Below, piece by piece: positions 490-64,000 of a stretch of DNA of 64,000 nt. The position numbers and the translations under genes were made by a program. The stretch spans positions 17,378,957-17,442,956 of the forward strand of contig JAZAYU010000004.1 of assembly GCA_038501625.1 (NCBI GenBank). Reading direction: 5' to 3'. Source of the DNA: Corbicula japonica. Lineage: Eukaryota; Mollusca; Bivalvia; Venerida; Cyrenidae. Each line of letters starts with the position of its first letter. Position 1 is the first letter of the stretch. The notes beneath the pieces were generated by a model. It saw nothing but the letters and a program-made list of their open reading frames with translations. It made no database searches and was not told the DNA's origin.

Positions 490-19871
<19,382 letters not shown>

Positions 19872-29100: not shown

Positions 29101-32100
29101 ATTAACTGTCTGTTGATGACTGGCACTTTTTTGTTGTCAAAGGGGCAGTGTGACTGGTTTTGTTATTTGTTGTCAGTAAAATAGTGTGACTAGTTTTGTA
29201 ATTGGTTGTCAGAGGAGCAGTGTGATAGGTATTGTTATTTTGTCATAGGAGCAGTGTGCCTTTTGTTATTGGTTGTCAGATGAACAGCGCAACTGTTAGT
29301 GTTATTGGTTGTCACAGGAGCAGTGTTTTTTTGTCATTGGTTGTTCGTTGAAGCTGAAGGATGTATTGTTTGGAGTTGTCAGTGTAACTGTTTGACATCG
29401 ATTGCTATAAATTATTCATGCAAGTATTTCTGTTGGTTGTCAGGTGCTGGCAGGATGAAACAGTGAAGAGTAACAGAGATGCTGCCATCACATCAATAGC
29501 TTTAAGAGGAGCTGGACACCAGGTGACTGTTATTTTCTTAATTATGTAAAATAAGCTTTTATCTTCTATTTATAGTTATCATTTAATGTCATTACAAGGT
29601 AAATGCTTTGCATGATAATATTCCTGCAGAGTGAGTGATGACCAGAGGAGTGAAGTTGGGTATTAACTATTAATGTCTAATACCATACTTGTACAACAGT
29701 TTTGTTAATTTTTCCATGTAAATGTATTAAGAGTACCATTATTCTATTAATGAGCACTCACTTTGCCATTTAGTTTTTTTGGTTCCATGATAGTGAATAA
29801 TACAAAGGTCATAATTGGGGTAAACATTTTCACCTCTTCATAATCTTAACACTTAACTGTAATAGAGTTACTCTGTACAATAGATAAACCTTTATTGTGT
29901 GGGCACATTCATGCCGTCTGATCAGAATGTACACTGTTCACATTTAGATTCATTAGGTCATTTCTGACCAACATGCGACCAGTCCAGATCCAAATCAGAC
30001 AGCACAGATGTGCCAGCTTATCTAGATCTACACTGGTTGCACAGGCATTTAAGGTGGATGGACACGTTGCTCAGCCAGTTCTGACGTCAAAAATTAAATA
30101 TTGTTTAAATCTTATGAAATTTTGCCCTTTATTGAAATATGCAAAATATTTCCACTTGCCGACGACGGTTATTGAAACACAACGCCATCTATCGAGGCAC
30201 CCTGAGGCACCATCCACCTTAAACATGTAGATATGAGGAGTAAAAGGTTAAATCTTGATTACAATTGATTCTTGTTTAGCTGGGTTCATAAAACTTAAGA
30301 CAAGTGTCAGTGAAGCATCATGATCTCTTGATATTTTAACAGATTAGGTTTTAACAGTGAAAAGGTGGTCAAATACATAATGAATAAAAAAATAAATAAT
30401 TATTTGACATGTATTTCAGTTCTTTGTGGGCACTGCCAATGCTAGAATGTACAAGTTCAGTTACGAGAGTACCAATAAGTCTGGCGTACCATCATTTGAT
30501 AGCTGCGAACTCACCAAAACCTGCCACTCAAGCAGAGTTAATGACGTCATCTTTCCCCCGTAAGTAACAAGTAACTGTTTATATTTGAAAAATAGTAAAA
30601 AGAATTAAAACATATCAATGCATATTTTCACCCTGTGCTCTGTAGATACTTTTTAAATCCTATCAAATGCAGTCACTTTAATAAATTAATTTACAAATAT
30701 CAAAAAAGAAAGGTTGAAAAGATCTAATCTCTTTAAATCTTATATGTTAATATAAACTTTACTCCATAAATATGGTTTTCATCACATTAATGACAATTGT
30801 AGATCCAGATCAGCATGCACATCTGTACAGTCTGATCTGGATCTACACTGTTTGCTTCTTGGCTGGAAATGGTCATACAAATCTTGAAGTGTGCAGTGAA
30901 GGTCCTGATTAGACTGCACAGATGTGCAGGTTGGTCTGGATCTGCTCTGTTTGCCTATGGAATAACAATCATATTCAATGGAGTAAATGATTAATGTTAG
31001 ATGTAGTTAAATATTACGACATTTGACAACAATCATCTATTTTTGGTTTCAGTGGTACCTCCGATATCATTCTCACCTGTCAGAAGGAACAGATTCGTAT
31101 CTGGGCTTTAAAGACTATGAAGGAGTTGAAGAGACATATAGTACCTAACATGACCTGTAATGCTATTGCACTTGCTTGTAATGGACAAGCTATTGTTTCA
31201 GGTAACATAGTATAATAAACTTGTTGGATCTTACCCATCAATGGTTTTGTACAGAACAAATGTATGCACGAATGAGCCAATTCATTTTATATTAACTCCT
31301 GTTAAAGCATCATGATTATTCCTGAAAGATTAATTTGTGTGAATTTTTTTGAGCAACCAGGGTAGATCCAGATCAGTCTGCACATCCAGACAGTCTAATT
31401 AGGATATTAACTGTTCACTTCTTAGTCAGATAAATTATATTCTAATCTTAAAGTGAACAGTGTAGATCCAATCAGACTTGAAGAATGTGCAAACTGATCT
31501 GGAGCTAAACTGGTCACCAACTGTATATAAGTGGTACCCATGGAGTAAAGGGTAATATATATATATTGAAATTCCAAGCAATGATTTAACCATTTATTAT
31601 AAAAAAAAAATTCAAGTGTCCATGCATCATTGTTTTACATTTTAATTAGTGGGTTGATTTCAGATATGAAATATTGTTTATTGAAGTCATCGTTACAAAT
31701 TTGGTGTTGATTTCCATAAAATTACATGATATGTGGATTATGGTAAACATTGACAATATGTAAATATAATATCAGACATATTAGGGCCCTCCTCTAAAAT
31801 ATGGTCATTGCATAATTGAATAATATACACAGCCTCCTTTTGCACATACTGCATAATATAAATGATGTTTATAGCTTTTGTTGAAGATATTTCATTACTG
31901 ATATATTTTTGGCTATCTGAATCATATCCCTAAGAAATAAATATTTCAAAGAATGCAACTAAAATAATGAATTCACAGTATATATCCTTGCCATGTGGTA
32001 AGACGATACATTAACATATGCTGTGTTCCTTTCAGCCTGGGACGATGGAATTATCCGTGTGTTTGGTTTCAACGGTAAGGCTGGCAACGACCTTGTGCTG

Positions 32101-33586
32101 AGGAAAGCTATCAGTGCTGCCCACAACAAAGGTGTTACTGCAGTAGCCTGTACCCAGAATGCCTCATACTGCTCACCAGGTCAGTGGGACTTCAAGATCG
32201 TCTCCGGGGGAGGTGAAGGTCAGGTTAGGATCTGGAGTTTCAGATATGATGGTCACGGAGATCCAAGTTATCAGCTGCTGGACACTCTGAAGGAACACAA
32301 GGGATCTGTGTCTGATATCAAGATCCGGAAGGATGACAGAGAGTGTGTGTCTGCCAGTACTGACGGAACTTGTATCATCTGGAACTTAGAGTAAGTCACC
32401 TTGTTTCATATATATGGGTTTTATTACATGTGCAAACAATGTAGATTAAGATCAGCTGGTGCATCTGTGCTGTCTGATCAAGATCTACATGGTTTGCTTG
32501 GTTGTTTGTGAATCATAATGCAAAAAGTGTAGATCCTGATCAGATGGCAGAAATGTGCCAACTGATCTGGATCTACACTGTTTGCCCTTGGATAACTGCC
32601 ATATCCCATGGAGTAAAGGGTTAACAAAGCAGATCAATTAACTTTTAAAGAGTTACATTGTATACTCGTTCACCGATTTAATTTAGTTTTCCTTTTCTGT
32701 TTTAAATATAATATATATGTTTTTAAATATAATACGATTACTTCTGCTAAAGAATAAGAGGTAGTTTATGTTCAATTATTGCTCATTATAAAATATATTT
32801 TTGGAACTTCAGTTTCTCAGAGTTGGAATTGTTAAAATATTTGTGAAGTTTAACATTTTGATGTGTTTGGTGATCTCATGTTATTCGCTGTTTCAGGAAG
32901 CGTTCAAGAAGTCAGATAGTATTTGCTAACACCCTTTTCAAGTGTGTGTCCTACAACAAAGATGAGAATCAAATCTTTACGAGTGGAACTGACAGGAAGA
33001 TTGGCTACTGGGAATGCTACGATGGGTCACAGATCCGAGATCTGGAGGGCTCCAAGACGGGAGCTGTTAACGCTATGGATCTGTCGCCTGATGGAGACTA
33101 CTTTGTTACCGGTGGTGATGACAAACTGTTGAAGGTGTGTCTAGGTGTTAGAAAACAAACATAAAATATATCATTTAAAATTTATTGGAGTTATAAGTTT
33201 GTTTTTATTGTTTCTTACAAAATAATTATCTGGGCCACAATTATTTGTATGATTTTTTTTAAAATTAAGTTAGTTTATACATACAATTTAAACTACCTAA
33301 TGCATGAATATTTGTAAACCATATTGTCACGTGCAAAAATGATACAAGTACTGTTGAAATACAAAGCAGATATACTGTTAATGCACTAAGGCAATGAAAA
33401 TTGTGTTTTATAAACTGGATATGGTGTTGTATGTTACAGGTGTGGACTTATAACCAAGGTGAGGTAGTAGCAGTCGGTACTGGACACAGCGCCACCATCA
33501 CACGTATAAAGATCTGCCCACAGCAGAAATTCATCACCAGTGTCAGCGAGGATGGTGCCATTCTCGTCTGGAAATTCCCATTCTAA
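23110..33586 (+). CDS. CFAP52: Cilia- and flagella-associated protein 52 (WD40 microtubule inner protein)
   Basis: Twelve exons join with no frame break to 668 codons plus TAA: 23110-23182, 24839-25044, 25972-26108, 26715-26843, 27895-27994, 28501-28754, 29444-29522, 30420-30559, 31053-31201, 32036-32390, 32897-33134, 33440-33586. Matches to the vertebrate CFAP52/WDR16 pattern include VIGFNG near the N-terminus, ASGQ-T-MGFK, FSPNDLYLASLGG, ASTDGTCIIWNLE, SGTDRKIGYWE and the C-terminal SEDGAILVWKFPF. The protein is made of WD40 repeats, read as two beta-propellers by family knowledge. CFAP52 lies inside the doublet microtubules of motile cilia. An X-box 83 bp before the ATG fits control by RFX factors. 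The 668 residues slightly exceed the roughly 620 of vertebrates. Exon 3 begins at a GCAGGCAGCAGCA stretch, so NAG-type acceptor wobble of a few alanines is possible. Introns hold many MITEs. Confidence 0.96.
23951..24551. mobile_element. Tc1/mariner-type MITE in CFAP52 intron 1
   Basis: TA duplications at 23949-23950 and 24552-24553 flank a perfect TIR of 22 bp beginning CAGTGGTGTGGGGCAAGTCT. 601 bp long with no transposase frame. The CAGTG start plus TA target fits Tc1/mariner. Confidence 0.83.
25045..27894 (+). other. CFAP52 introns 2-4
   Basis: Outside exons 3 and 4 this is AT-rich. Segments at 25240-25910 contain repeated short phrases such as TCCCAAAATTTAGGGAC (a diffuse inverted repeat). 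The 27030-27660 stretch is less AT-rich but has no convincing coding frame. Confidence 0.55.
28259..28445 (+). mobile_element. TTAA-class MITE in CFAP52 intron 5
   Basis: Left end TTAACCCCTTACTCCATA is clear. The second module is truncated, about 50 bp before the exon 6 acceptor. Confidence 0.72.
29050..29345 (+). repeat. Degenerate minisatellite in CFAP52 intron 6 resembling the exon 7 acceptor
   Basis: About seven irregular units of TTATTGGTTGTCAGAGGAGC followed by AGTGTGAC-type sequence. The true exon 7 acceptor 100 bp downstream reads TGTTGGTTGTCAG, the same string as in the array. Confidence 0.65.
29880..30250 (+). mobile_element. TTAA-class MITE interrupted by a second TTAA element
   Basis: Hairpin modules lie at 29895-30045, then the 166-bp insertion at 30053-30218, then the right end ATGAGGAGTAAAAGGTTAA. 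In CFAP52 intron 7. Confidence 0.78.
30053..30218. mobile_element. 166-bp TTAA-flanked MITE nested in the previous element
   Basis: TTAA at 30049-30052 and 30219-30222 flanks ends GGTGGATGG and CCATCCACC (9-bp perfect TIR). The target duplication and the clean interruption of an older repeat support a real insertion of piggyBac type. Confidence 0.82.
30760..30992 (+). mobile_element. TTAA-class MITE in CFAP52 intron 8
   Basis: TTTACTCCATAAATATGG at the left and AATGGAGTAAATGATTAA at the right enclose two full hairpin modules and the linker. Confidence 0.76.
31345..31554 (+). mobile_element. TTAA-class MITE in CFAP52 intron 9
   Basis: Two diverged modules with ATGGAGTAAAGGGTAA at the right end; the left end is eroded. 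Confidence 0.72.
32405..32624 (+). mobile_element. TTAA-class MITE in CFAP52 intron 10
   Basis: Starts about 15 bp after the exon 10 donor and ends CATGGAGTAAAGGGTTAA. Both modules are well kept. Confidence 0.76.
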
Positions 33587-40676: not shown

Positions 40677-43600
40677 ATTGTTGTTTCTTGCAGCTATTAA
40701 CTATGACTCTGATTTAACACAAGAGGGCCATAATGGCCCTATATCGCTCACCTGAGTACAAAAGTACTCTCTGCTTGTGGTTTCAGACAAGAAGATTTTT
40801 AAAGTTTTGCCTATACAAGTCTATGTAAAATGAAGTGACCCCTGGGGCGGGGCAAATTTTGACCCCAGGAAAATAATTTGAACAATCTTTGTAGAGTTCC
40901 AATAGAGGATGATAAATGCCAAATATCTAAGCTCTAGGCCTTGTGGTTTCAGACAAGAAGATTTTTAAAGTTTTGCCTATACAAGTCTATATAAAATGAA
41001 GTGACCCCTGGGGCGGGGCCAATTTTGACCCCAGGGAAATCATTTGAACAATCTTTGTAGAGTTCCACTAGAGAGTGCTAAATGCCAAATATCTAAGCTC
41101 TAGGCCTTGTGGTTTCAGACAAGAAGATTTTTAAAGTTTTTCCTATATAAGTCTATGTAAAATGAAGTGACCCCTGGGGTGGGGCCAATTTTGACCCCAG
41201 GGATATAATTTGAACAATCTTTGTAGAGTTCCACTAGAGGATGCTAAATGCCAAATATCTAAGCCGTAGGCCTTGTGGTTTCAGACAAGAAGATTTTTAA
41301 AGTTTTTCCTATACAAGTCTTTATAAAATGAAGTGACCCCTGGGGCGGGGCCAATTTAGACCCCTGGGAAATAATTTGAACAATCTTTGTAGAGTTCCAC
41401 TAGAGGATGCTAAATGCCAAATATCTAAGCTCTAGGCCTTGTGGTTTCAGACAAGAAGATTTTTAAAGTTTTACCTATATAAGTCTATGTAAAATGAAGT
41501 GACCCCTGGGGCGGGGCCAATTTTGACCCCAGGGAAATTATTTGAACAATCATTGTAGAGTTCCACTAGAGGGTGCTAAATGCCAAATATCTAAACTCTA
41601 GGCCTTGTGGTTTTAGACAAGAAGATTTTTAAAGTTTTTCCTATACAAGTCTTTAAAAAATGAAGTGACCCCTGGGGCGGGGCCAATTTAGACCCGTGGG
41701 GAATAATTTGAACAATCTTTGTAGAGTTCCACTAGAGGATGCTAAATGCCAAATATCTAAGCTCTAGGCCTTGTGGTTTCAGACAAGAAGATTTTTAAAG
41801 TTTTTCCTATACAAGTCTTTAAAAAATGAAGTGACCCCTGGGGCGGGGCCAATTTAGACCCGTGGGGAATAATTTGAACAATCTTTGTAGAGTTCCACTA
41901 GAGGATGCTAAATGCCAAATATCTAAGCTCTAGGCCTTGTGGTTTCAGACAAGAAGATTTTTAAAGTTTTTCCTATATAAGTCTATGCAAAATGAAGTGA
42001 CCCCTGGGGCGGGGCCAATTTTGACCCCAGGGAAATCATTTGAACAATCTTTGTAGAGTTCCACTAGAGGTTTCAAAATGCCAAATATCTAAGCTCTAGG
42101 CCTTGTGGTTTCTGACAAGAAGATTTTTAAAGTTTTTCCTATATAAGTCTATGCAAAATGAAGTGACCCCTGGGGCGGGGCCAATTTTGACCCCAGGGGA
42201 ATAATTTGAACAATCTTTGTAGAGTTCCACTAGAGGATGCTAAATGCCAAATATCTAAGCTCTAGGCCTTGTGGTTTCAGACAAGAAGATTTTTAAAGTT
42301 TTGCCTATATAAGTCTATGTAAAATGAAGTGACCCCTGGGGCGGGGCCAATTTTGACCCCAGGGAAATAATTTGAACAAACTTTGTAGAGTTCCACTAGA
42401 GGATGCTAAATGCCAAATATCTAAGCTCTAGGCCTTGTGGTTTCAGACAAGAAGATTTTTAAAGTTTTTCCTATATAAGTATATGTAAAATGAAGTGACC
42501 CCTGGGGCGGGGCCAATTTTGACCCCAGGGAAATAATTTGAACAAACTTTGTAGATTTCCACTAGAGGATACTAAATGCCAAATATCTAAGCTCTAGGTC
42601 TTGTGGTTTCAGACAAGAAGATTTTTAAAGTTTTTCCTTTCGGTTGCCATGGCAACCAGAGTTCTGCATGGAATTGATTTCTTTGAACAACTTTGGAAGA
42701 GCTTCATGCAAGGAACATCCGTGGCAAGTTTCTTCAAAATTGGCCAAGCCGTTTCAGAGAAGAAGTCGTTTGAAGAAAAAGTTGACGACGGACGGACGTA
42801 CGCACGGACGACGGACATCAGGCGATCACAAAAGCTCACCATGAGCACTTTGTGCTCAGGTGAGCTAAAAACAGATGATGATAACGATGATATTTTTATC
42901 ATATTCTTCTTTATAATTAATTTCTCCAAAAAGTTTTATACATGTATATCTATTTGGCTGTTTTTGCTAGAAACGGTAAAAGAACTTGTTGAAATATGAC
43001 CTGTATATATTTTATTGTTCATATTTTAACTTTCTGTTAAACCTGTTAAGAACTGTTTCAACAATATTAGAATGAACATGCAATAAAAATAGATGAAGGG
43101 ATCAGTAACACCGAGCTCCCTGTTTAGTTTATGATACATGGTTTTTGTATAGTAGTGCGAGAGGCACAAAGGCAGCATGTCACTGACCACGTCCTTGTAT
43201 AAACAATACAATAAACAAGAAATGTCCAACTGTGCATTACCATAGTCTATTATTAAAACATGTACAATACACAGATATATTTTTATCGCTAATAAAAATT
43301 TTAAGGCAAATGTTTCTTTTCAGAATAAAGTGGCAGCTAAGTGTAACAGAAGTCCTTACCTTGTGTAGCTGTTTGAGTGATTCATTTCCAGCCTGAAGGC
43401 CTTTCAGCACCTGTGCTTCTATCTGGGCAAACTCAAGGTCATGAACCTAAATTACATGTATATTCCATTAGATGAAGGCATTTATGCGTGTTCAACAATA
43501 TTCTTATACAAGTAGAATTTGGTATTCAAGCAGTAATATGCGGTCTCCCTATTAAGCAATCGGCTTATTAAATTTTGTTAGTGTCTTTAATTAAAATAAA

Positions 43601-46846: not shown

Positions 46847-47870
46847 CGGTAGGTATAAAATACGCAATGGAAAAATGGACCGCAATGGAAACAAAATACG
46901 CAATGGAAATAGAAAATATTTATTTTGTGTAAATATATGTTTTTATTAGAATTTATAACACAGATTGAATATTATATCAACCAAACACATGTTATTTTTA
47001 ATTTAAACCAAGTGTCCAAGTTTCAGATTCGTAAATATTAATGAAATACCTTAATAATTCTTGCGCAATGGAAATTCCTGTGGACGCAATGGAAATGAAG
47101 ATCGTGATTTTATTGCTATTCTCTAATATTTGAATGAAAATTGACTTGTAAATGATGTTTTAATAATATTTCATCGGTCATAAACATGAAATATTTTTTT
47201 AATAATGTCTTAGTGCTCAGTTTTCCAGTATATATGAAATAATCCTAAAAAATCGTGCGCAATGGAAATTCACGTGTACGCAATTGAAATAAAAAATATT
47301 TATTTTGTGTAAATATTTGTTTTTATAAGAATTTATAACAAAGATTGAATATTATAACAACCAAACATATTATTTTTTATTTAAACCAAGTGTCCAGGTT
47401 TCAGATTCGTAAATATTAATGAAATACCTTAATAATTCTTGCGCAATGGAAATTCCTGTGGACGCAATGGAAATGAAGATCGTGATTTTATTGCTATTCT
47501 CTAATATTTGAATGAAACTTGACTTATAAATGATGTTTCAATAATATTTCATCGGCCATAAACATGAAATATTTTTAAAATAATGTCTTAGTGTTCAGGT
47601 TTCCAATATATATGAAATAATCCTCAAAAATCGTGCGCAATGGAAATTCACGTGTACGCAATTGAAATAAAAGTTCGTTTTAATTGATATTTGGTTGCCT
47701 TTTGTAAGATTTAACAACAATTATTGAATTTGTTATCAATCAAAAACCTTTTTGTAAACGTTTAGTCAAGTGTCCAAGTTTTATAATAGGAAATGATATT
47801 GAAAAACATATGATAAATCTTGCGCAATGTAAATTCCCGTGCACGCAATGGAAATGAATACCGTGTTTTA
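46847..47870 (+). repeat. Left terminal inverted repeat with CGCAATGGAAAT arrays
   Basis: Contains about 13 copies of CGCAATGGAAAT or one-mismatch variants, near 46864, 46881, 46898, 47064, 47083, 47259, 47279, 47442, 47462, 47635, 47656, 47823 and 47844. Most come as direct-repeat pairs about 20 bp apart, close to two helical turns. The sequence between pairs is AT-rich and repeats with a period of about 378 bp (47064 to 47442, 47259 to 47635). Confidence 0.86.
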
Positions 47871-50632: not shown

Positions 50633-52902
50633 AGAGAAGATGACAGCAGGAAAAAGGAATTACATACCTCTAGAACCACAGCCGCTCGATTCACATATTC
50701 TGGTAATACACCCGATGTATCAGACTTTGAAAGCCTCTCCGAAAGGTGCACAACACTTTAAAAGACGGGTGACATGGTTTGGAAATATACCAGACAGTTT
50801 CGCATACTTACCGGACAATGTTGGCATTGGTTGAATATATTGTTCGACACCCGAGTTGAACGCCTGAAACAATTCATAGCCAACAAAGATAATAATATCA
50901 CAGACAAGAAATTCCAACCATACTTTGAAAATAAACTGAATCACACCTTCTAGTCAGCCATGTCATTGAGCCGTCGCGAAAAAATCGCATTAACACAAAA
51001 TTGAACGAACAACAATAGCGAAAGCGCTAACCATATTCTTAAAACTTTGAAGTCGACGGACATACCTAAATTTATTGAACTATTGTACGAGGTGATCAAC
51101 GGAGAAAAAAATCGAACGATGTCGCGCAATAAGAAACAAGAGCCGTCAGAGACGGGTTATGCTCCCCAACGCCGCTTTGTCACAAATACTTTTTTGTTAG
51201 AACAGGAAGAATTTGTAAGAAAGATATTGTATTTGAAAGTTTCCTTTACGATTCAAACAGAAAGCATTTTACAATATTGTACAAAAATAAGACAAAAAAA
51301 ATGAGAAATTTCAAAGGGCACTAACTCAAAAATGAATAAAGCAAGAGTTATGGTTCTTGTGCATTGCACTGCTCTGCATTGAGATCATTCTACTTATGAA
51401 GTTTCAAGTTCAGAAACTTTTATACTTTGTGAGATATGCACCAGATAAAACTAAGTAAGAGAAATTTCAAAGGGAAATAAATAAAAAATCAATAAAGCAA
51501 GATTTATGGTTCTTGTGCACTGCACTGCGCCTCATTGAGATCTATCTACTTATGAAGTTTCAACTTCCTAACTCTTATACTTTGTGAGATATGCCCCGGA
51601 CAAAAAGTAAGTATGGTAAATTTCAAAGGGCATTAACTCTATAATGAATAAAGCAAGAGTTATGGTTCTTGTGCACTGCACTGCTCCTCAACGAATTCAT
51701 TCTACTTATGAAGTTTCAAGTTCATAACTCTTATACTTTGTGTGATATGCCCTGGACAAAAAATAAGTAAGAGAAATTTCAAAGGGCAATAAATCAAAAA
51801 TCAATAAAAGCAAGAGTTATGGTTCTTATGCACTGCACTGCTCATCATTGAGATCTATCTACTTATGAAGTTTCAACTTCATAACTCTTATACTTTGTGA
51901 GATATGCCCCGGACAAAAAGTAAGTATGAAAAATTTCAAAGGGCAATAACTCAAAAATGAATAAAGCAAGAGTTATGGTTCTTGTGCACTGCACTGCTCC
52001 TCCCTGAGATCTATCTAGTTATGAAGGTTCAACTTCATAACTCTTATACTTTATGAGATATGCCCAAGACAAAAAGTAAGTATGAGAAATTTGAAAGGGC
52101 AATAACTCAAAAATGAATAAAGCAAGAGTTATGGTTCTTATGCACTGCACTACTCCTCATTGAGATCTATCTACTTATGAAGTTTCAACTTCATAACTCT
52201 TATACTTTGTGAAATATGCCCCGGACAAAAAGTAAGTATGAGAAATTTCAAAGGGCAATAACTCAAAAATGAATAAAGCAAGAGTTATGGTTCTTGTGCA
52301 CTGCACTGCTCCTCATTGAGATCTATCTACTTATGAAGTTTCAACTTCATAACTCTTATACTTTGTGAGATATGCCCCGGACAAAAAGTAAGTATGAGAA
52401 ATTTCAAAGGGCAATAACTCAAAAATGAATAAAGCAAGAGTTATGGTTCTTGTGCACTGCACTGCTCCTCATTGAGATCTATCTACTTATGAAGTTTCAA
52501 CTTCATAACTCTTAGACTTTGGGAGATATGCCCCGGACAAAAAGTAAGTATGAGAAATTTCAAAGGGCAATAACTCAAAAATGAATAAAGCAAGAGTTAT
52601 AGTTCTTGTGCACTGCACTGCTCCTCAACGAGATCTAACTACCTATGAAGTTTAGTCTTGATACCTCTCATAGTTTTTGTGTAATTGTCCGGACAATATT
52701 ATGACGGACGGACGGACGAACGAACGGACGAACGAACGGACGGACGAACAGGACGGACGGACGGACAAAGCGACAACTATATGCTCCCCCGAATTTCGGG
52801 GGGAGCATAATAAAGGCAACTATAAACTGGCGCCGGATTTTGCTCATCATCTGATAGACATATACGCGTGGTCAAATTTAACTGAACAACAACGAGAATC
52901 TT
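50633..52902 (+). pseudogene. Decayed transposase-like reading frame interrupted by element E
   Basis: From about 50633 (after an acceptor-like TTGCACAG) one frame stays coding-like for about 165 codons but carries three internal stops: TAA near 50758, TAG near 50951 and TGA near 51002. Recognisable pieces include CWHWLNILFDTRVERLK, TNNNSESANHILK and DIPKFIELLYEVINGEK. A TNN-xES-xNH-xLK block followed by a conserved helix recalls the C-terminal part of Mutator-like transposases; that is recognition from memory, not a search. The frame is cut at 51135 by element E and resumes in the same frame after 52809 with KLAPDFAHHLIDIYAW, ending near 52902. The N-terminal catalytic part was not found, so the copy appears dead. 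Confidence 0.5.
51135..52810 (+). mobile_element. HINE/pearl-like element E, about 9 x 156-bp core, nested in the 7.9 kb transposon
   Basis: Starts AACAAGAG, then hairpin CCGTC-AGA-GACGG. TTATGCTCCCC (51157-51167) is complementary to GGGGAGCATAA (52800-52810). The core has about nine 156-bp units with GAGTTATGGTTCTTGTGCAC, then a long GGACGGACGAAC tract and the hairpin CTCCCCCGAATTTCGGGGGGAG. The insertion splits the decayed transposase-like frame, so it came after the host transposon. Confidence 0.82.
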
Positions 52903-53564: not shown

Positions 53565-54760
53565 GCATTCGTCAATCGTGATTTCTTTTTCATTGCGTAC
53601 ATGTCCATTTCCATTGCGTAGTCTTCAAACATATTTTTTATTCATTGAGGTGTTATAAGTTATAATTGTACGAATAATTTCTTTGATTATTTATAAGAGT
53701 ACCGCCCTTAAGCTTATGCATGTGTTCATTTGCATTTACGAACACAAAGTTAGTTGAAGATCGTGATTTTCATTTTCCATTGCGTACATGAAAATTTCCA
53801 TTGCGCACGAAATATCTACACAATCGGATGGGCGATCATTATTACAATGATCGGACCTGGTCCTTAAATAGGCCTCGACATATGAAATAAGACTGCTTTT
53901 TTTTTTTTACAAATTTATGTATTCTTTATTACAGTTTTGTTTGTTTGCACTCGTCAATCGTGATTTCTTTTTCATTGCGTACATGTGCATTTCCATTGCG
54001 TAGTCTTGAAACATATTTTTATTCCAGTTATAAGTAATAATTGAACGAATAATTTCTTTGATTATTTATAAGACTAACGCCCTGAAGCTTATGCATGTGT
54101 TCATTTGCATTTGCGAACACAAAGTTAGTTGAAGATCGTGATTTTCATTTTCCATTGCGTACATGAAAATTTCCATTGCGCACGAAATATCTACACAACC
54201 GCGGTCTTCAAATAAGCCTCAAAATTGAATGTGATTTTTATGAAAATTTATTCAATTTATAAAGGTACTCCTTTAATTATATTATAACTAGAACGTGTGA
54301 TTAATCCTACATGCATTCAAAATAGTGCAGAAATAAGTTTTACATTTCCATTTCGTACACGTAACCTTCCATTTGGCGATATTCTAAAACCGTCAATCTA
54401 CTAAAGGTATTTCGTTTCATGTTCGATTACAGTTTCATTTCTTAACTAAATAAATTTTACTGAGCAATTGCAAACTAATACAATTAAAAAGCAAAATATC
54501 CTAGATGTACATTTCCATTGCGCGCACGTGAATTTCCATTGCGCAGCGTTTAAAGTAGGTATTTTAATAATATTGACGAATGGAAAACCCGGACACCTAG
54601 CTAATATTAAAAATATAATGTTCTTGATTATAAAATATTCAATCAGTGTTATTTATTCATATAAAACAAACATATTTACAAAAAATACTTTTTTTAATTT
54701 CCATTGCGTATTTTGTTTCCATTGCGGTCCATTTTTCCATTGCGTATTTTATACCTACCC
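53565..54760 (-). repeat. Right terminal inverted repeat with ATTTCCATTGCG arrays
   Basis: Mirror image of the left arm. ATTTCCATTGCG or close variants recur, often paired, near 53591-53625, 53768-53800, 53966-54000, 54150-54182, 54508-54545 and 54693-54745. A longer unit beginning with GGTCCTTAAATAGG repeats at about 53478 and 53862. The outer 60 bp match the left end almost perfectly, while inner blocks have diverged and changed in number. Confidence 0.85.
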
Positions 54761-54819: not shown

Positions 54820-57800
54820 ATGTGGATACAGTTTGTTGTTTACTTGTTTGTTGTGATTGGAACCTTTGCAGATATAAAGCATCCAAAACTGAATAGGTCG
54901 TTGAAAAAGCACGGTTTTCACAGGTACGATAACAACACAGGAGCATGGATTCCAGGCAATGAAGTAGATCTATTTTGTTTTTCTTATTTTCCAACTAGAT
55001 CTATGAATGTGGTCCCAACTATTTGTGCGCAACACGGGCTTTATATATACGATGGTCGCCCTTCGCGCACAACCCAGTTACTATTCAAATCAATGCAGAA
55101 AATTTTCCTTCTACAGTGGCGTAGTTACTATAAGGCCATGTAGACTTGGGCCTACCAGTTGAACAAGAAAATGACATTTCAAAAGTCCCATAAATTACAA
55201 TAAAAACAGGAACGGGGTTGGGAAAATACAGAGTTCGAGCCGTTTGGTCGAATCAAGTGTGTCTTTTGAGCATTTTGCTATTTTTCCACTTATTCTGGGC
55301 TTGCCTCCTAGACCCCTTACAAAAGGGCAACTGCCCCTTGGAACCTTGTTTGGGCCTACAATTTGAAAAAAGCTGGCTACGCCCCTGTCCTATGTCCATA
55401 TGCCAGCGATAAGAATCATGGTCGCAACTTTTGACGACTTCAAATAGTTTTTTAAACCTTATATATCTTTAAAAAAATTACATACCTGAAAACCTAATTC
55501 CAGTTAGAATCAATATATATGTGATACTTTTTAAGAAACTTTTTCATTCATTATGTAAAAGACTTAAAAACCTCTACACATGTCAACAGTTTTTATGTTA
55601 GACCACTTAAAGTCTACCTGACTGTAGATTATCGATTTATAAAAGGGACGCTTTCATTGGTTATCACATTAAAATCAACATGTACCTGGCATAAACAATA
55701 GTAAGTTTAAAAGTGTTATTTGTGGAATAGTTTTTATTTTATTTATATTTTATAGACTATATTAATTTTATTAGGCCAGAGAAAATAAATTATTAGATTC
55801 TCATCCGGATTTTGGGAAAAAAAGCGGTGGGTGGACACTTTTTAATTTTTATTTTTTATCAACAAAGTACCTGATAACAACTTACAAAAGTAGCAGTTTG
55901 GTGCCTATTCTTGCTTGAAAAGCCATACCATTCTTTAAAAGTGACACAATCACTTTTGGTAAGCTTTGAAATGATGAACATTTTATTTTATTGGTGTCGG
56001 CAATGTTTTTTTCCATATCCGGGATGGTCTAAAACCTGTTCTGTCCAAATTAGAATATGTTTTGATTTTTTTACCAATAAATTTTTTTGGGGCGGGTGGT
56101 TTTGGACAGGGGCGGCGGGGATGAGAATCTAAAATATTTTTTTCTATTGCCTTATTTATAACAACAAATGAACATAGCAGTGCTGAATTTTTCAAATGGC
56201 AGTGAAAAAAATGGGAATTTAAAGCAGTGCGATTTCCACCACAGTTTTGATCATAACTGCTTGAGACGTAAAGGTAAGACATCTATAAAAAGTCAGTATG
56301 ATAATGGGTCTGTGCTTGCAGTCAAATTATTGAGACTAAATGTGGTACCAGCTATGTTGTCTATTTTGGGTGTCAAAATAAACCACTTCCCAATCAAATA
56401 AATCCAAAATTATAAATTACAATATTCAGTTCAATGTTTTCTCTAGGGCCAACCAGTTTTATTTTGTTTTTAAGATTATTTTATATTACTAGGAGTAACC
56501 TTAAGCCAGTGTACAGCCCTCTCTGAACTTCATCAGACAGCTCTCTCAATGTAGAAGGATAGAAAACTACAAAATGTAGACTGCCTACAATAAACATTTT
56601 GATAAGATTCATAAACAACATTTAAAAGACAAACAAATTTATTAGCAGGCTAGTGGCTAGTCTAGTGAAAAAGCTCTTGAGACCGTGTTTATAACATTTA
56701 GGATTTAGGTACCTATTTAACATTTAGGATTTAGGTACCTATTTTGTAGGCCAATAAAATAAAAACGAGATGGTGAAGTGCTTTGATTGTTTCATTATTT
56801 GATTCTATACAAATTGCAGATAATTTTTATGTATAACAGTTATTTTACTGCATTAAACACACATAAAAATCACAGATAAAAACTTGCTTAATTTTTGCAG
56901 CTTGGAAATATGTGCATTTCCAAAGCTGGGTGGCACTTCAAAAAAGTCAACTTCTAAATTATAAAGTGTTAGAAATAAATTCCAAATATAATACGTGTTT
57001 TCCTGTTCAGGTATGGTGTCCTTTTAACTATTAGCCTTTATGTCACAAAATTTTACAATCTTTGAAAGAAATGGAGATTTAATTTAGCGCGTACTATGTT
57101 TGATTTTCGAAAACGAGGAACACTTTCTTAAATACCTAATTTCTCGAGTTAAGCGTGGTAAATGTTTTTAAAAACTCTTGATGTCTTAATGGATGGACTT
57201 ATTAATGAAAACAACAAAATCCCAATCAGCGAAATTCAATAGTTACATGTATTACATTCTATTGTGCTATTTCTTAACATTCTATGAAAATGCAACTAAT
57301 GAAGTCCTAAGTAAAATGATGTAGACTGTGCAGTATCTGGGGCAGCATCCACCAAAAAAATTTTCCACTCTAACTTTAGCAATACATATATGCAATCTTC
57401 ACCAAACTTTCTAAAAACGTTTATGGCCAAAATATCTCAGTCAGGTTTGTAAACAAAGGAGATTTGCTCAAGTAGCTCTTGAGTTATGGCTTTTTAATGC
57501 TAGAAATTGGCCAGACATTAGCACTAACTTGGAAAATGTTTATCCAGTACTCACTATTTTGTTCAGAATGTTTATGAGATTAAGATTTCTACACATTTGA
57601 TATCCAGCCACATGCCCTTAAGCTGCCCACATTTTTCCAAATTTCTTCTTCTTTAAAGGCATATTTTGTTGCAGGCTTGTTTTATCATGTGCTTTGGTTT
57701 TCTTATAGTTGTGCAGGCTTTCGATAAAGAAGATTTTGTGCTACTAAGGTCATGGATGGAACTTTATGAATAGTTATATGTTCACATATTATAAATGCAT

Positions 57801-60800
57801 ACAGTCTGACAGTGCCTTACTTTAAATGTAATGTTTTATTTACTGGCTATACTATCAAGTAGAAAATAAAAGGTTAATTTATCTTTGAATAATTTGTACA
57901 GGGATCTTGAAACAGTTTTGTCTCTGCCAGTGACTGTTTTACCAGATGTTGCTACAGGTGAATGTTTCCTCCTGTTCACAGAGACCATACCATCAGGAGC
58001 ATATGTTGATCCCTACCAGCTGAACTCACTGAGACCCTATGGTGGACCAGATGTAAGTTTATCAGATGTAAGTTTTTGCTTACATCATCATCAGGGCTGA
58101 TAGTTATAAAACTGAGATTGGAAACCAGTCTCAAATCTCAAGAATCTGATTGGCTGAAATGACGACTGGTCGCCATTTCAGCCAATCAGATGCTTGAGAT
58201 TTGAGACTGGTTTCCATGCTCAGCTTTATAACCTTGTGCACAGAAGGCAATGCAGGAAAGTTTGTTTAACCCTTTACTCCATATTATTCTATGCATGTGT
58301 GACCAGTGTAGATCCAGATCAGCCAGCACATCTGTGCCATCTGACCTCGATCTGCACTTGTAGCGTCTGGGTCAGAAATAACAAAATGAATGAAACAGCA
58401 AACAGTGTAGATCCTGATCAGGTGGCATGGATGTGCCAACTGATCTGGATCTACACTGTTTGCACATGTGATAAAAGGCATATATATGGAGTAAAGGGTT
58501 AAGATGATTATTCCAGATATTGCTTTTACAGTATCCCTATTAATGTTCATTTCTTCATGATGATGTAGAGTAGATCAAATCATTTTAAGCTTGTCTGTTT
58601 CAAATGAGCTAATGGCATAGCTTCCATTTGCCTGGGTTGTCTTTTGTTATTGTGTTATTTTTTTGTTAACTTTTTAGTCAATCACCATTGGAGATGAAGC
58701 TTTCAAACTTAGCACAGTTGTAACAACAGAGACAAGTTTCATAACTCTTGATGAGTATTTGTAATATTTATTTATACCCCTTGTAACCGTTAAAGATTTA
58801 GCTTTGAAACTTCTCATGATGACCAGTTTTACTACATGTAACATGAATGTTACCATTAAAGCTGCTAGTTTCAAATTAAGCATTTTAAAATTGCAGAACC
58901 TCTCACTTAGATTTAAATAAACAATTGGACAATCAGCTGAAATAATCCTGTTAATCCTTGTCACCTAGATAATTATGGTGTTTATCATTTGGGGCTCACC
59001 ATGAGTAAATGTGTCTTTGGTAATATTTTTTTTTACATTTTAGTTGTTTCTATATTTGAAAAGAATTTACATTTATCTATTATTTTCTCCTAATTAATTG
59101 CATATTTTGTTACAATTTGGACAATAAAGTTTTATTTTTACCAAGCAATGTCATCTGCTCAACTTTATGACATCCTTGCAAGAATTGACATCAACTGTCT
59201 AAAGTCAAATTTTCCAGTGACTCACCCCATTTATTATCATCAGAAAAACAGTAATTGATTCAGCTTAATTCTTTTGATCCTCAGACAGTTATATTGGGGG
59301 AGGTGGACATTGAGAAGCCAGAATTTGCTGCCACAGAGTTAATGGTTCTTGTGTATGGGAACTTGAGCTGGAGTGAAGAAGACACCCTGACGAGTGGCTT
59401 TACCCTGCCCGTACACCTGAGATACCATGCTGTAGCCCATGGAAACAACTATGCCACTGTCAGATTTACACACCCAGAGATTGCTATTAGATGTAGCAAT
59501 TTGAAACTAGGGACGATACATTCTGGTAATGGTATTCTTAACAGAATTACTTGTATAACAGCATTAGAATTATGCCTGACCCTGACCAAGTGTAAAGTTT
59601 AGAATTCATTTGTTAAGGTTACTGTATGTTGTGGGGCTCTTAAGTTGTAGATTTAAGTTTTCTAAATCATGTTTAGGTATGGATCTCTTTAAAGCGGTGA
59701 AGGGGAATTTAAATACCTAGATCTATAGCCAACCCACAAAATCCATGCACATTCATACCTGATAATAACAATGATTTAGTTTAATGTTTTGCTGTAAAAA
59801 CTGGGATTATTGGTAATGAAGACTGCAGACACATCAAAATATTTTAGCCTTTATTCAACACTTTGTCTCAGTGTTGTACTTTTCATTTGGAAAGAAAGCT
59901 TTTTGACACCAAAATAAAGCAGGAAAGTAGCATGAGTGCAGAGCAGATTTCAGATGTCACTTACTCTGCAAATGCTTAAAGATAGTGGTTCATAAAGCAA
60001 CTTTGACTTGGATCATCATCAAGTTAATTTGCTTGGTAGCATTTTTAGCCAACCTATTCAAATGTAGGCAAATAAGCTACTGTAAAACACATGGTCTGTT
60101 TAAACTATGCTGAAAATAGCCCAATACAATATACTAATTAGTAATTACAAATTGTATTGTAGTAATGTGAGAAGCTTACTTTATGCCCACTTAAGGATGC
60201 AGCATTAGGAGTTAAAAATTTACTCCATGGTTATCTTGGCTTATATCCTATGTGTGAACAGTGTAGATCCAGATCAGCATGCACATCTGTGCTATCTGAT
60301 CAAGATTTAAGCTGTATGTTTTTAGATTAAGTAGAATATGTTTTACCTAGAAGTGAAAAGTGTAGCCAGATCAGATTGCACAGAATGATATGGCTGTACA
60401 CTGGTCACCCATAGTATAAAACTGTATCCATGCAATGAAGAGTTAATGATTTTCTTTATCTGTAGGATATCATGGCAACACTGTAAAACAGAAAACTCAG
60501 TGGTGTGACAGCAGTAGCAAAGTTCTTTGTGACTGGACAGTGATACATTATGAAACTGTAAGTATTTACGAACAAAGTCAAAAGAATTGTTTTCTTCATC
60601 TTAATTTGCCTTAGAGCCTTGCCTAATGGCGGTATATTGCTAAAGAAAAATTGAAACCAGGAGCTTGGGTTTAAGCAGATTCATAAGGTTTTAGCTGTTA
60701 CAGTGTTGTGTTGTTCTCGTCTCTTTTATTTACCAACATAATCTGAGCAAATTCTTGTTCATTGTTTCTGTTGGATTGTTTGTATTAAATTTTATCTGTA

Positions 60801-63066
60801 AGATTGGAATAGAACATTTTAAATGTTTATAACCTGGTTATTTGATTGCTGAATGTTGTTTTGGTGCAAAGGCAGACATCTGATTAGTTTAATTTCTAGG
60901 CCATTACTATGACAAGTATGTGGAATTATAATAAAACTTTCCACAAATGATCCCCACAGCATGGTGATGTGTCATACACAAAAGCCATGTCAGTGTCTTA
61001 AAGGTCAAGTTCTCTATTATCAAAAATAGATAATTGCTGAAAACATAATGTCTGAGCAATAACTCTGACCTGTATGATGGGATTGCAATGAAATTTACCA
61101 AAATAATCACCACAGTTAGTATGAAAATATTTCTGTCACTGATAAATAATTAAGGCTATTTTTAAATGTGTCAACTACAGCCCACTGCACCTGGAGTAAT
61201 TTAAAAGCATCTGCTATGGAAAGTTTTGGTTTCCATAGTATTTTCTCTGTCATCGTTCAAGTTGAGAATGTTTTGTCTACTGATCTATGATGAATTGATA
61301 GTGATGTGTAGATGGTAGGTATTCTTGGATGTCAGTGAGAATGCAGGTCTCTTGTAGCTGTTGAGCACTTCCTTCCCTGGATAGTTACAGTTCACACACC
61401 TCCATAGACAGTGACTGACCTCACAGATCATAAGTTAGTGAGGTTGTAGATTCAAAATAGTCTTAAAGAAGTGGGTGAGAACACTTTTTTAAATTGTCAG
61501 TGAGCACATGTCCTTATAAAGTCAGAAAGCACACATCCTTAAAGAATCAGACACTGAGCACATGTCCTCAAACAGTGAGCACACATCCTCAGACACTAAG
61601 TACACATGTCCTCAGAGAGTGAGCACACATTCTCAGACAGGGAGCACACAGACAGTAAGCATGCACATCCTCAGACAATAAGTTCACAAGTCATGTTCTC
61701 AAACAGTGAGCATACATGTCCTCAGACAGTGAGCACACAGCAAACATGTCCTCAGACAGTGAGCACACACATCCTCAGACACTGAGCACATTTTGTAAAA
61801 CAGTGAGCATATATGTTGTCAAACAGTGAGTAAACATGTCCTGAGACAGTAAGCACACATTTCGTCTGACAGTGAGCATACATGTTATCAGAATTGGGGT
61901 GCACATGTCCTGTTTATTCTTCAGATTTTGAGAAATGTCAGTCTAACGGTTCCTGTTGATTCTTCAGTTTGACAGAGATGTATTTCTAACGGTTCCTGTT
62001 TATTCTTCAGGTTGACATAGATGTCAGTCTAATTGTTCCTGTTTATTCTTCAGGTTGACAGAGATGTCTTTCTAACTGTTCCTGTTTATTCTTCAGGTTA
62101 TCAGAGATGTCAGTCTAACTGATCCTGTTTATTCTTCAGGTTGACAGAGATGTCTTTTTAACTGTTCCTGTTGATTCTTCAGTTTGACAGAGATGTATTT
62201 CTCACTGTTCCTGTTTATTCTTCAGGTTGACAGATATGTCTTTTTAACTGTTCCTGTTTATTCTTCAGGTTGACAGAGATGTCTTTCTAACTGTTCCTGT
62301 TTATTTTTCAGGTTGACAGTGATGTATGTCTAACTTTAATGTCAGTCTAACTGTTTCTGTTTATTCTTCAGTTTGACAGAGATGTCATTCTTCAGGTTGA
62401 CAGAGATGTCAGTCTAACAGTTCCTGTTTATTCTTCAGGTTATCAGAGATGTCAGTCTAACTGTTCCTGTTTATTCTTCAGGTTGACAGAGATGTCTTTC
62501 TAACTGTTCCATATTAGTCTACAGGTTGACAGAGATGTCAGTCTAATTGTTCCTGTTTATTCTTCAGGTTGACAGAGATGTCAGTCTAACAGTTCTGTTT
62601 ATTCTTCAGGTTGACAGAGATGTCAGTCTAACTGTTCCTGTTTATTCTTCAGGTTGACAGAGTTGACAGTGATGTCTTTCTAACTGTTCCTGTTTACTCT
62701 TCAGGTTGACAGAGATGTCATTCTAAATGTCTGTCTGTGTAATGTTACCTGTTTATCCATTAGGTAACAGTACCTGTTTATCCATCAGGTAGACAGAGAT
62801 GTCAGTCATACTGTACCTGTTTATCCTTCAGGTTGACAGAGATCTCAGTCTAACTGTACCTGTTTATTCTTTATGTTGACAGAGATGCCAGTATTTCTGT
62901 ATGCTTTATTCTTCAGGTTGACAGAGATGTCTGTCTAACTGTACCTGTCGGAGAAACAGATCAGATGAGATTTGTTGTCATAGTTACTGTAATGACCACA
63001 CTTGCTGCATGTCTCACTTTAGTGTTAAAAACACTCTCTGTTCAACCAAAGATCAAAACATGTTAA
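54820..63066 (+). CDS. PIGX: Phosphatidylinositol-glycan biosynthesis class X protein
   Basis: Five exons join in frame to 245 residues: 54820-54923, 57902-58052, 59285-59525, 60466-60557, 62917-63066 (TAA). Residues 1-17 (MWIQFVVYLFVVIGTFA) form a signal peptide. GFHRDL (32-37) spans the exon 1/2 junction and matches vertebrate PIGX; SGAYVDPYQL, LPVHLRYH (126-133), LCDW and TVPVG follow. A C-terminal membrane span lies at about 213-233 with a short basic tail, giving a type I ER membrane protein. Family knowledge: PIGX binds and stabilises PIGM, which adds the first mannose to GPI precursors. Sequons occur at N25 and N111. Exon 1 also reads on into the intron without a stop until 55143, but the GFHR/D junction and GTACGA donor support splicing. 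Exon 2 has tandem donors. Exon 5 follows a long array of copies of its own acceptor. Confidence 0.94.
55114..55387. mobile_element. hAT-like MITE in PIGX intron 1
   Basis: CAGTGGCGTAGTTAC at 55114 mirrors GGCTACGCCCCTG ending at 55387. CAG-GGCGTAGC ends are typical of hAT elements. The flanking 8-mers share only TCCT, so the duplication is degraded or misplaced. TTGGGCCTAC occurs near both ends. Confidence 0.62.
55388..57901 (+). other. PIGX intron 1, remainder
   Basis: Beyond the TIR element at 55791-56133 there is a 27-bp tandem duplication (TTTAGGATTTAGGTACCTAT, 56695-56745). Nothing else is recognised. Confidence 0.55.
55791..56133. mobile_element. Short TIR element in PIGX intron 1
   Basis: TTAGATTCTCATCC near 55793 is exactly inverse to GGATGAGAATCTAA near 56118. 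About 340 bp; interior AT-rich with G-rich tracts near both ends. Class unknown. Confidence 0.55.
58053..58072 (+). other. Tandem alternative 5' splice sites of PIGX exon 2
   Basis: CAGATGTAAGTTT occurs twice, with donors at 58053 and 58068. Using the second adds 15 in-frame bases (VSLSD). Both match the donor consensus equally; the first was used in the model. Confidence 0.7.
58094..58240. mobile_element. Palindromic fold-back MITE in PIGX intron 2
   Basis: Full hairpin starting only about 40 bp after the exon 2 donor, centred on CGACTGGTCGCC. Transcribed in the PIGX pre-mRNA it could form a stem of about 70 bp. Confidence 0.8.
58266..58502 (+). mobile_element. TTAA-class MITE, best full-length copy, in PIGX intron 2
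   Basis: TTAA at 58266-58269 and 58499-58502 flanks CCCTTTACTCCATA and its inverse TATGGAGTAAAGGG. Inside are two hairpin modules (GTGTAGATCCAGATCAG with CTGATCTGGATCTACAC type arms) joined by a CAGAAATAAC linker. This copy defines the family: 229 bp, TTAA target site and CCC-starting TIR, as in piggyBac-derived MITEs. Confidence 0.85.
58987..59233. mobile_element. Diverged TIR MITE in PIGX intron 2
   Basis: Ends ATTTGGGGCTCACC and GACTCACCCCATTT. The internal run TTTATGACATCC...ATTGACATCAACTGTC aligns with the copy at 63371-63630, showing one family. It ends about 50 bp before exon 3. Confidence 0.62.
60225..60446 (+). mobile_element. TTAA-class MITE in PIGX intron 3
   Basis: TTTACTCCATGG at the left and AATGAAGAGTTAA at the right; second module diverged. 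It ends about 20 bp before the exon 4 acceptor, so it supplies part of the polypyrimidine neighbourhood. Confidence 0.74.
60558..61499 (+). other. PIGX intron 4, 5' part
   Basis: No repeat, RNA gene or coding frame recognised before the minisatellites begin. Confidence 0.55.
61500..61905 (+). repeat. Degenerate minisatellite, unit near 22 bp
   Basis: Recurring CAGTGAGCACACATGTCCTC with insertions and deletions, about 15 copies. Lies immediately upstream of the 43-bp array in PIGX intron 4. Confidence 0.75.
61918..62916 (+). repeat. 43-bp minisatellite of PIGX exon 5 acceptor-junction copies
   Basis: About 22 units of GTTGACAGAGATGTCAGTCT followed by AACTGTTCCTGTTTATTCTTCAG. Each unit combines the last part of the intron (polypyrimidine tract plus CAG) with the first 30 or so bases of exon 5. 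The last real copy, at 62904-62947, is the genuine acceptor and exon start. Units nearest the exon are the most degraded (TTTATG instead of TTCAG near 62870). No convincing 5' donor lies inside a unit. Confidence 0.9.
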
Positions 63067-64000
63067 TTAGAATGAAAAGTGACAGTGGCCACACAATGGC
63101 CTCACAAAATGCCTGTGAACAACCCTGGGAGTTTTACAGATGTTTACCAAAGATGTTAACAACCTTGTTTGTTTCTCGTTGTTGATGCAGACACTAAATA
63201 CTTTAGATGATGAACTTACAATGATAATGATGAACTTAATAAGAAATAAAATGAAAACAATAATCTACCCATTCAGAGGATTGTAGTAACATTGTTATTA
63301 AAGCTGCCTTTTCACAGTTCAAGGTGGAATACTTCAGTGCCTCACATGTGGTTAATATTGATTGTACCACTATATGGGGTACGTCACGGGAAAAGGTACC
63401 TTCGGTCATTTTTAGTGATATTTTAGATTTTACTAAATTTAGAAACAACCTGCAACTATAAATCAATTTTTATAACTTAAATGTGATTTTGTTACACATT
63501 TTGACAATAAAATGGTATTTTTACTGCTAAATGTATAATAAATAATGTCGTCTTTTCAAATTTATGACGTCATTTCAAAGATTGACGTCAACTGTCCGAA
63601 GGTACCTTTTCCCGTGGCGCGCCCCATATAATACCAATAAATGACTGAACAGGAGCACATTTCACTTAGTTTGAACTAATCAGTGTATTTTAGGATCTGT
63701 TGCCAAGTTTACTGCTATATACTGTTCTCTAGTAAGTTGAATGTGTAAGAATATTACATCACATTTACTTTGTTCACAGGATTTCTGCAGTTTACATAAA
63801 AAATTTGATATATTTAAAAACACTTAATATTTTCATTCTTATACATGAATGGGCACCTTTGAGAGAATGATGATGTTTTTTAGGCTATCTCTGTAAATGT
63901 GCATTCCTTTATTTATGATTTTTGTGGCTGTTGAACATCTTTCAGTGTATTAAACTTGTTTTATCTGCCTATGATTTGCTTATGCTTTCTTGGTATGTTA
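63067..64000. other. PIGX 3' region
   Basis: AATAAA at about 63244 is a possible polyadenylation signal 180 bp after the stop. A MITE follows at 63371-63630; the rest is AT-rich without features. Confidence 0.5.
63371..63630. mobile_element. 260-bp TIR MITE downstream of PIGX
   Basis: 35-bp terminal repeats with three mismatches, left end TATATGGGGTACGTCACGGG, right end inverse of TATATGGGGCGCGCCACGGG. The interior has GACGTCA motifs (CRE-like) at about 63573 and 63586. It lies 305 bp after the PIGX stop codon. Confidence 0.82.

Follow-up and report, generated by a model that had tools for sequence, protein, structure and literature searches.

Among the closest described systems is a minisatellite with multiple splice donor sites in an interferon-induced transcript (Turri, Cuin and Porter 1995, NAR 23:1854). 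In the potato RdRp gene, a piece spanning an intron-exon boundary was duplicated in tandem and made a new intron, which RNA reads confirm (Ma et al. 2016, PMC4974935). Internal tandem repeats in human segmental duplications, with units of 30 bp on average, lie in some cases at exon-intron boundaries and alter splicing, according to the available passages of PMC2812944. The locus considered here, intron 4 of the PIGX gene of the clam Corbicula japonica, carries a 43-bp minisatellite made of copies of the intron's own 3' junction.

The interferon-induced transcript is reportedly human 6-16 (IFI6/G1P3), which agrees with papers citing that study. Both the IFI6 minisatellite and the clam array supply many splice sites of one kind. 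In IFI6, to judge by the title of the report, these are donors and a transcript was examined, whereas in the clam they are acceptors with a branch motif and pyrimidine tract and are predicted from DNA. The duplicated piece in potato, as presented in the accessible part of that report, resembles the clam unit in that both hold a branch site, a pyrimidine tract, a CAG and the beginning of an exon, with splice signals passed on by the original junction. However, the potato case is one duplication that gave a real new intron, while the clam has about 23 extra copies within an existing intron, again seen in DNA only. The human repeats are likewise minisatellites, some of them at exon-intron boundaries; the available passages report 27 intron modifications, with about four repeats on average, and mention no acceptor ladder. 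The earlier note on this DNA had not seen such a structure described. The multi-donor minisatellite and the boundary duplication are close precedents in print, although a limited literature search, which does not establish absence from print, brought up no ladder of acceptors as long as this one.

The gene model was assembled within the window (the whole 64,000-nt stretch of DNA that was analysed) from five exons picked by eye on the + strand, and all four introns are GT-AG. Exon 1 (54820-54923) supplies the ATG and a hydrophobic N-terminus and is followed by exon 2 (57902-58052) and by exon 3 (59285-59525), which was placed by alignment as well as by the gene model and includes the LPVHLRYH region. 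Exon 4 (60466-60557) ends at the donor ACT/GTAAGT (60557/60558). The last coding exon, exon 5 (62917-63066), opens with VDRDVCLTVPVG and contains the hydrophobic segment FVVIVTVMTTLAACLTLVL and the stop. Donor 60557 and acceptor 62916/62917 are consistent with this model, which gives 245 residues and one stop. The product matches positions 1-210 of the 211-position PF08320 (PIG-X/PBN1) profile (E 9.3e-32; 111 bits, cut-off 23) and has a C-terminal membrane anchor at residues 215-233 (mean hydropathy 2.56), as befits a PIG-X/PBN1 gene. In a protein search that 3 of 345 candidates passed, the top match was a PIGX-like protein of Mercenaria mercenaria (52% identity over 86%). AATAAA and ATTAAA words are present from 63245 onward, such words being common in A+T-rich DNA. 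One PIGX homologue, P0003, is longer by 19 residues (alignment columns 200-218) precisely where exons 4 and 5 meet and the array lies, an insertion that could stem from an upstream acceptor or an additional exon in that species.

The array was delimited by TRF at 61908-62948 on the + strand (period 43, 24.1 copies, 78% matches), and its head-to-tail units fall within the range of about 10-100 bp that is typical of minisatellites. Each unit is a module of intron end and exon start, and the last copy straddles the PIGX intron 4/exon 5 junction, extending 32 nt into exon 5. The 23-mer TTCTTCAGGTTGACAGAGATGTC has 22 matches with at most 3 mismatches in the whole window, the real junction counted, as against none in 100 shuffles; all 22 are on the + strand and inside the array. 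Parsing by hand gave 23 acceptor cores upstream of the real junction (61913 to 62904, + strand), of which 21 read CAG, one TAG (62763) and one a dead TAT (62874), so the AG is kept in 22 of 23. These 22 copies, here called live, thus carry the splice signal of the adjacent junction, which is itself the last copy. Both the count of about 22 decoy 3' splice sites and the derivation of the repeat from the PIGX intron 4/exon 5 junction, as put forward in the earlier note, are therefore borne out, the latter by the position of the array and the gene model. A simple false duplication in the assembly is ruled out, since 23 of the 24 43-nt units are distinct; the copy number is as assembled. A foreign satellite origin was also rejected, the exact 23-mer being absent from IMG/VR, although a viral collection is a weak test.

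Acceptors and branch sites were scored with matrices of generic frequencies, not derived from this species. On this scale 9 of the 23 upstream copies score at least 12, against 1 of 3,561 AGs at window positions 100-61,900, and 15 copies score at least 10, against 23 of the same 3,561. The real exon 5 acceptor scores 10.8 with the generic matrix; 11 of the 23 copies lie above it and three equal it to one decimal. The three other acceptors of PIGX score 8.1-9.9 and have TTAAT at 16-24 nt. Weak tracts occur in the live copies at 62395, 62763 and 62788, which reach only 3.3-7.1. Many units have a second AG (GACAG) 8 nt past the core AG, 17 of which score at least 8 in the array and two at least 10 (62379 and 62882). 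When 12 tandem arrays were compared, the 43-bp array had 17 AGs of at least 10 on the + strand (17 rather than 15 because these two second AGs are included), while the other 11 arrays together had none on the + strand and four on the - strand.

Sixteen of the 22 live copies have a branch-site-like YTAAY at 20-21 nt upstream of the AG, which is an exact CTAAC in 12; in 13 of the 16 no AG intervenes between motif and acceptor. This branch motif lies in the exon-derived half of the copy before (..TCTAACTGT..). By motif, then, most units are predicted to be complete 3' splice-site modules. The real exon 5 acceptor has no YTAAY at this distance, because the preceding copy reads AGTATTTCTG there and CTAAC is lost; its best candidate, TTGAC, lies at 37 nt and is separated from it by intervening AGs. 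The description of near-perfect acceptors ahead of the real one thus stands, most copies being strong by motif and nearly half outscoring the real site.

When exons 1-4 are joined to the 22 live acceptors, the products have 207-239 residues and none reaches the membrane anchor. Exactly 15 residues are added before the stop at 13 acceptors and 11-43 at the other nine, which agrees with the earlier expectation of about 15 residues, a stop and loss of the anchor. Since exon 5, the last coding exon, is likely terminal, these early stops would fall in the final exon, and there only weak nonsense-mediated decay is generally expected. The penultimate copy (62863-62904, + strand, 42 nt), in which CAG has become TAT at 62872-62874, is the sole one that would continue in frame through exon 5 to the normal end (259 residues). 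This single dead copy reflects one event and could be due to chance. Eight nt past the dead TAT and 34 nt before the real site, AG 62882 stands behind the CTAAC and tract of that copy and scores 11.0 as against 10.8; its use would truncate the protein, as would that of three other AGs from 62848 to 62891. The idea that the dead neighbour shields the true site is unneeded, because AG 62882 is still present at that score.

The repeated part of the exon comprises 32 nt, which encode VDRDVCLTVP plus the greater part of the V that follows. VPVG, which is identical in 4 of 4 aligned proteins, Mercenaria mercenaria included, spans the end of the repeat, with VPV inside or at its edge and G just beyond. 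This identity marks the exon as the old part, from which the array was copied. Upstream, the exon-like GTACCTGT is found at 62770, 62813 and 62856 only, that is, in copies adjoining the exon, while those farther away mostly read GTTCCTG, a pattern that fits growth of the array in the direction away from the exon. CCTGT is present at both array ends and is a possible slippage seed. Segments of 120 nt compared at offsets of 86, 215 and 342 bp are identical at 112, 112 and 115 positions, and such near-identical blocks may be a sign of later exchange.

We propose that 43 bp at the PIGX intron 4/exon 5 junction, comprising the intron end and the initial 32 nt of the exon, were tandemly duplicated as a seed, and that the array then expanded into the intron through slippage and unequal exchange. 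Since the exon part reads TCTAACTGTACCTG, every duplication would have put CTAAC and extra pyrimidines before the next CAG, and most units would therefore be complete acceptors by motif. The array would be maintained by drift. If the decoys were used according to their scores PIGX would be badly impaired, so preference for the true site must depend on a factor that the scores do not capture; probably a terminal exon, with exonic enhancers and polyadenylation, defines the nearest acceptor, and the true site would still be selected often enough. Some transcripts would use upstream copies and encode PIGX without its membrane anchor; by motif, use of array copies by the spliceosome is likely. We infer slippage, leaky use and rescue by exon definition from the sequence, homology, reading frames and motif scores, and give this reading as a whole, a junction-seeded and drift-kept minisatellite with some mis-splicing, a probability of roughly 0.6.

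The main competitor, which we hold to be possible but distinctly less probable, shares this origin and makes the ladder silent: terminal-exon definition would ensure that the last acceptor is almost always chosen, with no measurable product of the copies. The gene still encodes the full PIG-X domain with its anchor, which requires use of the true site, and the polyadenylation-like words from 63245 fit a terminal exon. Silence is harder to reconcile with the 11 decoys and the nearby AG 62882 that outscore the real site, and with the branch motif that 16 of the 22 live decoys possess and the real site lacks.

An unlikely extension of the leaky reading is a length-variable ladder, in which copy-number alleles would differ in how much PIGX is anchored, how much is truncated and soluble and how much carries a frame-neutral 12-nt micro-exon, and would thereby tune GPI-anchor synthesis through the copied junction. 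A selected regulatory device, with copy number or decoy choice setting the balance between anchored and soluble PIGX, also seems improbable. Retention of the AG in 22 of 23 copies, the same type of truncated protein from all 22 and the weak decay generally expected for a stop in the terminal exon would suit such a device, but recent duplicates would appear alive in any case, and the splice columns of the array are not distinctly conserved. Among the 23 upstream modules, mean column variability is 0.09 in the pyrimidine tract, 0.04 in YAG, 0.20 in the branch region and 0.14 in the remaining columns, mostly of the exon part; in a permutation test splice-motif columns were not significantly more conserved than others (p 0.14; YAG p 0.07), which leaves the proposal of a splice-regulation device unsupported. 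We know of no role for soluble PIGX.

The earlier note had further held that degradation is greatest in the copies closest to the real exon and that this could reflect selection to protect the true site. Identity was measured over 27 nt against a consensus typed by hand and averages 24.0 in the first three copies, 25.7 in the next 15 and 22.0 in the last four; copy 62693 (26/27) belongs to none of these groups. The last mean is lowered by the partial copy 62752 (15/27), the other three having 24, 25 and 24. Over the 23 copies there is no trend of identity with position (Spearman -0.10, p 0.64), and the correlation with distance from the nearer array edge is 0.35 (p 0.10). The lower identity beside the exon thus amounts to a weak array-edge effect at most. 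Neither degradation towards the exon nor protection of the true site is upheld, given the lack of trend, the 11 of 23 decoys that score above the real site and the score of AG 62882 (11.0).

A copy acceptor could also be paired with the donor-like GAT/GTCAGT of its own unit, 12 nt into the exon part, which would add a frame-neutral insert of four residues (VDRD-like) from a nested intron or micro-exon and keep the anchor. [AG]AT/GTCAGT stands exactly 12 nt past the acceptor in 9 of the 23 upstream copies (the real exon has GTCTGT), all nine hold the frame to the normal stop, and the remaining introns would be 116-980 nt. We nevertheless regard this as very improbable, because these donors score only 4.3-5.2, against 5.3-8.4 for PIGX's own, and exons of 12 nt are in general hard to define. 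As a parallel, the potato intron that arose from a boundary-crossing duplication recruited its donor from the exonic part, according to the accessible part of PMC4974935.

Concealment of the decoys by RNA structure that leaves the real site open was rejected: a 291-nt piece of the array does fold better than 200 of 200 shuffles (z -3.2), and by eye CAGG (once UAGG) is stem-paired with CCUG in 14 of 23 copies, but the real site folds as well (-10.5 kcal/mol), 22 of the 23 copies are more accessible than it is, and a shuffled unit repeated six times in tandem folds as low in 54 of 150 cases.

The same intron holds a degenerate minisatellite of 21-25 bp just upstream of the 43-bp array (61498-61900, + strand, TRF), with no detectable relation to the 43-bp unit (local score 14, shuffle mean 15.9). 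It contains 10 donor-like sites (ACA/GTRAG or AGA/GTRAG) that score 5.1-6.8 on a generic matrix, three of which reach 5.3, the lower end of the range of PIGX's own four donors (5.3-8.4). This donor ladder is real but unremarkable, as the GTs at 61315 and 61475, in the same intron but outside both arrays, score higher; a nested splice from its sites to the acceptor ladder would be possible. After PIGX lies a MITE-like inverted repeat (63371-63630; 41-nt arms, 88% complementary), with a diverged relative, identified by eye, in PIGX intron 2 at about 59040-59235. An 18-bp-period tandem unit, AAAATACGCAATGGAAA, occurs on opposite strands at 46857-46909 and, just upstream of PIGX exon 1, at 54698-54750. 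Tandem arrays of 145-166 bp are located at 5526-6640, 7662-9435, 40774-42638 and 51301-52653, the first and last of which have two AGs of at least 10 each on the minus strand. ORFs at 15240-19871 (-) resemble the forkhead and FHA parts of what is presumably a FOXK-like gene, and those at 28417-32394 (+) a WD40 gene which we take to be like CFAP52.

The clam locus offers a natural experiment on acceptor choice, with 22 similar 3' modules in cis before an obligatory site and many of them better than that site by motif. Their usage in RNA would show how much the branch motif and exon definition count relative to distance and order. More generally, a minisatellite that arises at a splice junction can replicate splicing signals automatically.
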